Origin: Desulfurobacterium indicum
GTDB taxonomy: Bacteria; Aquificota; Aquificia; Desulfurobacteriales; Desulfurobacteriaceae
Reading direction: 5' to 3'
DNA length: 64,000 nucleotides
NCBI RefSeq assembly: GCF_001968985.1
Contig: NZ_MOEN01000004.1
Span: 1 to 64,000 of the forward strand
Position numbers and translations under genes: made by a program. The notes below the pieces were generated by a model. It made no database searches. It was given only the letters and a program-made list of their open reading frames with translations, and was not told the origin of the DNA. Shown piece after piece: positions 12,464-14,983 of the stretch (position 1 is its first letter; every line of letters starts with the position of its first letter).

Positions 12464-13453
12464 CTATTCTGCTCTGTTAGAAGGCATCGTTGTTTCAACA
12501 TGAACGGGTTTATTTTGTTCAGGTTTCAAAATCTGTATTCTTTGATTTAGCCAATCTGTAACAATAACATCACCTCTGTTATCAACGGCAACATCGGTAG
12601 GATAGTTAAACCAACCGGGAGACCAACCTCTTCCTCCAAATTCAAAAAGAAAGTTTCCGTTCATATCATAAGCAAGCACCGCCTGCCTCATTGGATCACA
12701 GACATATATACGTCTGTTTTCTTCATCAATAGTAACAGCAGAAGGCTGACTTAACTGACCAAAGTTTGCACCGTGAGTTCCAAACTTAAATAGAAACGTT
12801 CCATCCTTATCAAAAACGTAAACCTGACCAAAATCAAGCGCAACAAGATAAACACGTCCAAGAGAATCAACACCTACATTGGAGACAATAGAACCAACTT
12901 TTATATCTTCCACTTTCATTTCAGGATACAAGAATCGTGTAAACTTTCCATTCTCATCAAAACAGACAACAAAATCCTTTCCCGCTCCTGTTACGTATAT
13001 TTCTCCAGTTACGGGATTGACTGCAACATGAGTCGGAACAAAATCATTATCACCTTTAAATCCTTTCACCGGAATAACTTTTTTAAGAATAAGAGCTGAA
13101 GAAAGAACATAAATTTTCTGCTCATTAGAAGAGATTAGATAAAAGTTACCTTTAGAATCGACAAAAATATCGACAGGATCTTTTACTCCATAGCCTTTGC
13201 CTACTGCTAGAAAAGGAAAGTAATCCGGTGTATAAAATATCACTTTGGATTTACCAGGTTCAACAACATAAAGTTGTCTTGACTTCTTATCATAAAAAAT
13301 AGAACCGGGATAGGCCAAGGCCTTCCCGGTCTCATCTATGTTGATAATACCAAGCACCCTTGTGGAAACGACTTTTTGCCCCTTAGCTTTCAAAGGAAAA
13401 CCGCAGAGCAATCCGGTTAAAAAAATAGCTATTAACCTTTTGTTGTATGACAT
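12464..13453 (-). CDS. Secreted NHL-repeat beta-propeller protein
   Basis: About 329 residues with an N-terminal signal peptide (KRLIAIFLTGLLCGFPLKA) and some six repeats of the NHL type, such as YPGSIFYDKKSRQLYVVE, QPSAVTIDEENRRIYVCD and YPTDVAVDNRGDVIVTDWLNQRIQIL. The fold should be a periplasmic or surface beta-propeller used for binding. It overlaps the 3' end of the OmcS-like cytochrome gene in another frame (22 nt from ATG 13453; ATG 13462 and GTG 13468 are alternatives), so the two are translationally coupled. A role in assembling or anchoring the cytochrome is inferred from this coupling only. Confidence 0.85.
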   Translation of the reverse strand: MSYNKRLIAIFLTGLLCGFPLKAKGQKVVSTRVLGIINIDETGKALAYPGSIFYDKKSRQLYVVEPGKSKVIFYTPDYFPFLAVGKGYGVKDPVDIFVDSKGNFYLISSNEQKIYVLSSALILKKVIPVKGFKGDNDFVPTHVAVNPVTGEIYVTGAGKDFVVCFDENGKFTRFLYPEMKVEDIKVGSIVSNVGVDSLGRVYLVALDFGQVYVFDKDGTFLFKFGTHGANFGQLSQPSAVTIDEENRRIYVCDPMRQAVLAYDMNGNFLFEFGGRGWSPGWFNYPTDVAVDNRGDVIVTDWLNQRIQILKPEQNKPVHVETTMPSNRAE

Positions 13454-14769
13454 ACCATACATCCACACTCATTCATGAGAGTTGCATTTGTAGAAGCACT
13501 ATCAGCGGTACATGTTGAGTAGTCCCATCTGAGAAGATCGTAGTATGGTGAACCGTGAGCCCTGTGGCAGGACACACATGTAACTATGGCATCGTCACCT
13601 GTCCATGAAATGGTGTTATCTGTGAGAAGCGTGTAGTTATCCGTTGCAACAGGAGCAAACATACTGTAAGGAGCAGATGTTGGATTACCACCGTTGTAAT
13701 ATTTGTATTCAACATCAGTATGTCCATCTACACCTATCGTAGCAGGTCCTGCATTTGAAAGATCAAAATCAGTCGGGTGTCTGAGCCATGGCGTCCCTAT
13801 AGGTGAATCTATTGCAGTAGGATCTCTTGAAACTTCAGCACCGCTGTGGAAAATACCGTGACACTCTGCACAAAGGTAAGAGATGGTATGAGGATTCGCA
13901 GTTGTAGGATCCTCAGAAGCTCTATTTACACCGTAATAAATATTATGTGAAACTCCGTTAGCATCTGCAACTGCTGCATATTCGTAATAGTTATGCTCAT
14001 ATCCCGCAATACCAGCAAGGAATCTGTAGCTGTTACCAATAGTTCCCGTACCGTTCACCCAACCATACATGTTGGAGTGGTGAGCTCCGTTTATACCTGC
14101 AAAGCTGTCAAGTGTTGATGCATTATGTCTTCCGTGACAGCCATAAACACCTGCACATGTAAGCTGATGAGTCCATGTAGCTTCACCGTTTGCTACCTTA
14201 GAGCCGAAAATTGCATCAGTAAAGTGAGTGGCGTTTGCATCCCAACCAGGCGGCGTTAAACCGATATTTGGATCTGGCGGCATACCAAGATCAGCAACGT
14301 TGTGTGAAAATCTTGAATCTTGAGTTCTCCCCCAATAGAAGCTTCCACCTGCAAGAGCCCTGTTCTGACCCCATGTAGCGGTTGAATAGTTACCAGTGGT
14401 ATATGCATCTCCAGTTGATGGATATTCCGGCTGTGTTGTTGAATCAACATAGGGCCAGAGATGATCGCCGTAATAGAGAGTTCCCGCTTTTGGTGCCTCA
14501 CCATAAGTGTGACAGTAACGACAGTCACCGCGAAGAAGGTTTCTAATAGGCGTTGTCGAATTTGAGAATGTCATCGGAACAACGTTAGTGGAACTTACAG
14601 TTCCGGTAGTGTAGCTGGCATTACTGTCCCACGGATAGACACCGTGCTGAGAGTTGTGCATTGTGTGACAGTTCACACATGGACCTACAACAGCACTGGC
14701 ATTTTGATATAAGATAAAGCCAGAAGATGCCAGCACTGCCAAAGTGCCCAGAAGCAGTTTCCTTCTCAT
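13432..14769 (-). CDS. OmcS-like hexaheme c-type cytochrome (putative extracellular nanowire subunit)
   Basis: A 445-residue exported protein with signal peptide (residues 1-26). Heme motifs: CVNCH 31-35, CRYCH 83-87, an unusual C-X5-CH (CAGVYGCH) 205-212, CAECH 300-304, CVSCH 398-402 and CMVCH 437-441. Their contexts parallel Geobacter OmcS as I recall it: CHTMHNS at heme 1, YRFLAG in the middle, LRHP after heme 4, CHRAH at heme 5 and a heme at the extreme C-terminus. OmcS polymerises into conductive filaments for extracellular electron transfer. Extra cysteines at 420 and 435 may form a disulfide. AGGAGG precedes ATG 14769. It could instead be a soluble multiheme cytochrome of the same family. 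An overlapping NHL gene follows. Confidence 0.8.
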   Translation of the reverse strand: MRRKLLLGTLAVLASSGFILYQNASAVVGPCVNCHTMHNSQHGVYPWDSNASYTTGTVSSTNVVPMTFSNSTTPIRNLLRGDCRYCHTYGEAPKAGTLYYGDHLWPYVDSTTQPEYPSTGDAYTTGNYSTATWGQNRALAGGSFYWGRTQDSRFSHNVADLGMPPDPNIGLTPPGWDANATHFTDAIFGSKVANGEATWTHQLTCAGVYGCHGRHNASTLDSFAGINGAHHSNMYGWVNGTGTIGNSYRFLAGIAGYEHNYYEYAAVADANGVSHNIYYGVNRASEDPTTANPHTISYLCAECHGIFHSGAEVSRDPTAIDSPIGTPWLRHPTDFDLSNAGPATIGVDGHTDVEYKYYNGGNPTSAPYSMFAPVATDNYTLLTDNTISWTGDDAIVTCVSCHRAHGSPYYDLLRWDYSTCTADSASTNATLMNECGCMVCHTTKG

Positions 14770-14983
14770 TTATCCACACCTCCTAAATTTCCCACCCAGT
14801 ATTAATCTATATTCAAGCGCATTTTAACAAAAAACATAAATAAAATCCACTAACGCTTATTAGCAAATTCTATAAATAAACCAAAAATTGACTTTCCAAT
14901 TATTCCTCAAAACTATCTATATTACTACTTATAGAATATATAGTCATGATAGAACAAAAAGCAAGAATACCTGACAAATTTTA

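Follow-up and report, generated by a model that had tools for sequence, protein, structure and literature searches.

Geobacter strings the six-heme cytochrome OmcS into filaments that carry electricity, and the structure of these filaments comes from one mesophilic Geobacter. The ligand that joins one subunit to the next is, as we take it, His16, the second histidine of CHTMH, which presumably ligates heme 5 of the following subunit. Structural work describes 12 histidine ligands in OmcS, 11 of them provided by the subunit itself and one, on heme 505, supplied by the neighbour (PMC6584659), and inter-subunit histidine coordination is common to OmcE and OmcS (PMC9473688). The physiological role of the OmcS filaments themselves is disputed (PMC11077965). 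An Oet-type conduit is marked by the porin OetI with the cytochromes OetA and OetB. In Desulfobacterota, Murali et al. (2023) described oet conduits with OmcX, OmcS-like and Apc2a cytochromes, and nanowires have been proposed for the OmcS-like proteins of that phylum (PMC10553843).

The locus investigated here lies in the window, a 64,000-nt stretch of DNA from Desulfurobacterium indicum, and adds a member of the OmcS family from Aquificota, a phylum new to a kind of protein that is itself already known. Our main reading, to which we assign a probability of roughly 0.58, is that the locus is a two-gene unit in which a secreted hexaheme cytochrome of the OmcS family and a probably co-translated NHL protein act together, the cytochrome subunits chaining into a filament or a surface heme chain. 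Both open reading frames and their overlap, as described in the earlier note, were confirmed (Table 1), and the portrayal of the organism as an autotrophic thermophile agrees with its genus and with ATP-citrate-lyase-like genes next door, the latter read by eye. The cytochrome frame is not a chance one, because it is under strong purifying selection (dN/dS 0.05-0.08 against orthologues) and belongs to a cross-phylum family of which more than 80 sequences were recovered; the AGGAGG before its ATG is, moreover, a strong ribosome-binding site. Pfam and NCBIfam assign it generic CXXCH domains only. Its export is predicted from a signal read by eye, and an AF2 model places a helix of high pLDDT at residues 2-21, within the predicted signal peptide. 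On the main reading, the cytochrome is a secreted OmcS-family protein that probably chains hemes at the cell surface. Two extra cysteines (C420 and C435) occur near heme 6, at window positions 13465-13512, and could form a disulfide.

Table 1. Features of the cytochrome/NHL locus, in window coordinates
Feature	Position	Strand	Evidence or conservation
OmcS-like hexaheme c-type cytochrome, 445 aa	13432..14769	(-)	ORF; family profile to OmcS 3e-30; Foldseek
AGGAGG ribosome-binding site, cytochrome gene	14779..14784	(-)	read directly
Sec-type signal peptide, residues 1-26 (NASA|VVGP), without lipobox	14692..14769	(-)	by eye
Heme 1 motif CVNCH (C31-H35)	14665..14679	(-)	invariant, 83 members
His38 of CHTMH, aligned with OmcS His16	14656..14658	(-)	82/83 members
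Heme 2 motif CRYCH (C83-H87)	14509..14523	(-)	invariant, 83 members
Heme 3 motif CX5CH, CAGVYGCH (C205, C211, H212)	14134..14157	(-)	C, C, H invariant, 83 members
Heme 4 motif CAECH (C300-H304)	13858..13872	(-)	invariant, 83 members
Heme 5 motif CVSCH (C398-H402), then H405 (CHRAH)	13564..13578	(-)	invariant, 83 members
Heme 6 motif CMVCH (C437-H441), four residues from C-terminus	13447..13461	(-)	82/83 members
NHL beta-propeller protein with signal peptide, 329 aa from ATG 13453	12464..13453	(-)	PF01436 E 5e-14
Cytochrome/NHL gene overlap, 22 nt from likely ATG 13453	13432..13453	(-)	4/4 genomes

The kinship to OmcS was investigated with two profiles searched against the PDB, A1, built from 82 relatives, and A2, a second and narrower one. 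Profile A1 matched OmcS (6ef8) at 3.2e-30, with NrfA the next family at 6e-4, and A2 matched OmcS at 4e-26; only the profiles reach OmcS, as a single-sequence phmmer search of the PDB matched nothing. This observation is strengthened by decoys, namely 300 shuffles of OmcS that kept CXXCH ±4 residues and every histidine, which scored 46 ± 8 bits (maximum 71; n = 300) against 107 bits for OmcS itself. With its CXXCH motifs masked, OmcS still scored 29 bits (E 5e-6), and with CXXCH ±4 residues and all histidines masked it fell to 7 bits; as this remainder alone is not significant, the signal comes from the motifs and the chain together. Foldseek, run with the AF2 model (mean pLDDT 69, pTM 0.74) against 350,542 PDB chains, returned OmcS as the sole match (E 4.7e-4, probability 0.97) at a TM-score of only 0.32-0.35. 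Kinship to OmcS beyond the heme motifs, on which the earlier note had made its proposal depend, is therefore supported by the profiles and decoys, with OmcS also the one Foldseek match. On sequence grounds, the cytochrome is a real but distant OmcS homologue along most of its length; its divergent heme-3 site marks it as a relative and not OmcS itself. Kinship to OmcE was rejected (0.34 with profile A1; 0.011 over 32 positions with A2), and OmcZ was not matched in the PDB searches with either profile.

The six heme motifs of the 445-residue cytochrome comprise five CXXCH and, in third position, CX5CH. The CHTMHNS, LRHP and CHRAH contexts and the C-terminal heme on which the comparison with OmcS was originally based are all present, with the exception that heme 3 is CX5CH where OmcS has CXXCH. 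Across the family, this site is exactly CX5CH in 64/83 relatives, and the other 19/83 carry two motifs there. These 19 members are thus seven-heme variants (examples are L044:6001-7098, L005:7181-8281 and L050:4209-5348), which may show how the number of hemes shifts within this family.

Five further histidines of the cytochrome, H38, H156, H308, H331 and H405, align with H16, H110, H247, H257 and H335 of OmcS and are conserved in 82-83 of the 83 members. The inter-subunit ligand, whose predicted absence would have spoken against a filament, accordingly has its equivalent in H38. The family also has an invariant H230-H231 pair and a near-invariant H275 at positions where the aligned OmcS residues are not histidine, which brings the near-invariant extra histidines, candidate distal ligands, to eight for six hemes. 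With eight candidates, the numbers alone do not require a ligand from a neighbouring subunit and would allow internal ligation, and this bears on a different reading, a monomeric or short-oligomer electron carrier of the OmcS family, at the surface or in the periplasm, that never forms filaments and has the NHL protein as its binding partner. We consider that reading unlikely, if far from negligible: the conserved histidines would suffice for full internal ligation, but the equivalent of OmcS His16 is retained in 82/83 members, and CHTMH at the extreme N-terminus together with heme 6 at the extreme C-terminus keeps the end geometry of OmcS.

The same surplus of histidines bears on the suggestion that the cytochrome serves as a terminal reductase, with oxides of sulfur or nitrogen as possible substrates, and not as a conduit. 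The genus Desulfurobacterium respires sulfur and nitrogen compounds, which would suit such an enzyme, and weak profile similarity to segments of NrfA was observed (E 6e-4). The NrfA match, however, covers a C-terminal stretch only and falls far below the OmcS score, the cytochrome has no CXXCK site, and the surplus of conserved histidines suggests that all hemes are bis-His, making a reductase highly improbable.

The downstream gene encodes a genuine NHL propeller (PF01436, 51.9 bits against a cut-off of 20, E 5e-14) that is under purifying selection (dN/dS 0.09-0.17). Its listed frame, 12464-13468 (-), 334 aa, starts at GTG 13468, a start that would lengthen the overlap with the cytochrome gene to 37 nt; the overlap is identical in each of the four genomes in the genus with this gene pair, and the NHL protein is probably co-translated with the cytochrome. 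That the neighbour is incidental, with no functional link to the cytochrome, could be argued from the family as a whole, in which a propeller gene is directly adjacent in only 29/67 loci (23 upstream, 6 downstream). We regard an incidental neighbour as improbable given the 22-nt overlap conserved in 4/4 genomes and the identical distributions of cytochrome and NHL, the locus-1 NHL orthologue occurring in the same 4/24 genomes of the order as the cytochrome and in none other. Furthermore, Pfam NHL marks three proteins in the 1.6-Mb D. indicum genome, and 3/3 adjoin multiheme cytochrome genes: the NHL protein of the window, that of a second locus, and one encoded immediately upstream of a gene for a 24-heme cytochrome. 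The survey of co-occurrence that had been proposed thus found a recurrent neighbour, and the description of the NHL protein as a dedicated partner holds within the genus, where co-distribution is perfect and the overlap conserved, and does not extend to the family. The link between NHL and cytochrome is recurrent, tight in this genus and not obligatory family-wide.

Beyond these pairs, a multiheme run at L074:2264-8792 (C7:44263-50791 of the same genome) encodes a diheme protein, a six-heme protein with a C-terminal transmembrane segment, a 307-aa membrane protein, a triheme protein, the NHL protein and the 842-aa 24-heme cytochrome. An NHL protein of about 270 aa occurs in most sister genera and may be the counterpart of the one beside the 24-heme gene. 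We had presumed that an NHL gene also lies beside omcS in Geobacter. Such a neighbour was not supported, GSU2505 being called hypothetical (PMC10599522).

Among 136 Aquificota genomes, the OmcS-like family was found in four, all of one genus with two loci each (4/24 within the order Desulfurobacteriales). The relatives come mostly from Desulfobulbales, Desulfuromonadales and Nitrospirota, and the family is a common one in both Desulfobacterota and Nitrospirota. The simplest account of this distribution would be that one genus acquired it from beyond Aquificota, the donors resembling Desulfobacterota or Nitrospirota. The tree sets locus 1 and locus 2 apart, and a single clade was not rejected (AU test, p 0.28), so that duplication and two acquisitions are both possible for the two loci.

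Locus 2 is intact in two sister genomes (L090 and L093), where three small envelope proteins are followed by a PPIC-type isomerase (PF13145), a six-heme protein, NHL, the OmcS-like protein, an octaheme protein and a weak-propeller protein, this last with a very weak propeller match. Clusters in Desulfobulbales display the same order, with isomerase, 26-heme, 16-heme, NHL, OmcS-like and octaheme proteins. The OmcS-like and octaheme proteins of locus 2 are about 42-47% identical to these counterparts, and its six-heme protein aligns with the C-terminal portion of the 16-heme one. Similarity of the octaheme protein to MtrC/MtrF is weak (1.6e-5) and does not reach the curated cut-off. In the D. 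indicum genome, the assembly splits locus 2 between contigs 21 and 49, and the second OmcS-like/NHL locus corresponds to L073:17934-19136 (C21) plus L098:1-1854; its octaheme gene is divided across the ends of these contigs, and the end of contig 11 (L099) carries the start of another octaheme copy. The model of the paralogue was poor (pLDDT 56). Two other octaheme proteins, L097:4097-6202 and L073:6454-7974, probably serve nitrogen respiration; one has as its neighbour a four-heme gene whose product carries an N-terminal membrane helix, and the other has weak similarity to the hydrazine dehydrogenase family.

An OmcS relative with a propeller partner suggests that the organism may exchange electrons with outside solids or cells. 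In the main reading of a two-gene filament or heme-chain unit, the hemes of the exported cytochrome would stack in the order of their motifs along the chain, and His38 of each subunit would ligate heme 5 of the next, in the manner that we presume for OmcS. Joined head-to-tail, the subunits would form a filament or a heme chain at the surface, along which electrons could move between the cell and an external acceptor or donor such as elemental sulfur, a metal oxide or a partner cell. Export, assembly or docking of the chain would be the most likely task of the NHL protein, and the locus-2 cluster of isomerase, six-heme, NHL, OmcS-like and octaheme proteins would contribute further components of this electron route. 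Filament formation as such appears plausible from this analysis, with the chances for and against close to even.

As regards the outer membrane, neither the MtrB/PioB porin (PF11854) nor any sequence matching the 762-aa candidate outer-membrane protein of L047 was found in the D. indicum genome, both negatives being obtained without a good positive control. A non-filamentous carrier would fit a genome in which searches with PF11854 and this candidate recognised no outer-membrane porin conduit, as well as the literature, where our search found no demonstrated filaments of OmcS homologues outside Geobacter; a report of extracellular electron transfer in the genus Desulfurobacterium was likewise not found there. 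The most ambitious form of the preferred reading would be a first cytochrome nanowire of Aquificota: a filament of the OmcS family that contains a CX5CH heme, has a co-translated NHL protein to assemble or dock it, and was acquired by one genus of autotrophic vent thermophiles to exchange electrons with solids or partner cells. It is offered as a tentative proposal that we hold to be somewhat doubtful in its entirety.

A thermophilic homologue in an autotrophic genus of Aquificota would extend the OmcS type of protein to a new phylum and a new way of life, and would offer a heat-stable protein for structural work. It would also make two questions testable, namely whether a CX5CH heme fits into the OmcS stack and what role an NHL propeller plays beside multiheme cytochromes.

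Compared with the oet clusters, the relatives found here belong to multiheme clusters in Desulfobulbales and Desulfuromonadales, both of which that work names (PMC10553843), and, as far as descriptions can be compared, they are probably of the same kind as the oet cytochromes; the differences are the phylum, Aquificota, and a window locus that consists of cytochrome and NHL only. The OmcE (7tfs) and OmcZ nanowires share the general kind, extracellular multiheme polymers, but are tetraheme and octaheme respectively. The closest comparison is with OmcS of Geobacter sulfurreducens (PDB 6ef8, 6nef), which shares the six hemes, the CHTMHNS, LRHP and CHRAH contexts, a heme at each end of the chain and homology over about 310 profile positions. 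It differs in that identity is about 26% over aligned positions and that, in the Desulfurobacterium cytochrome, the linker between hemes 5 and 6 is about 30 residues shorter, heme 3 is bound by CX5CH and an NHL gene overlaps the cytochrome gene.
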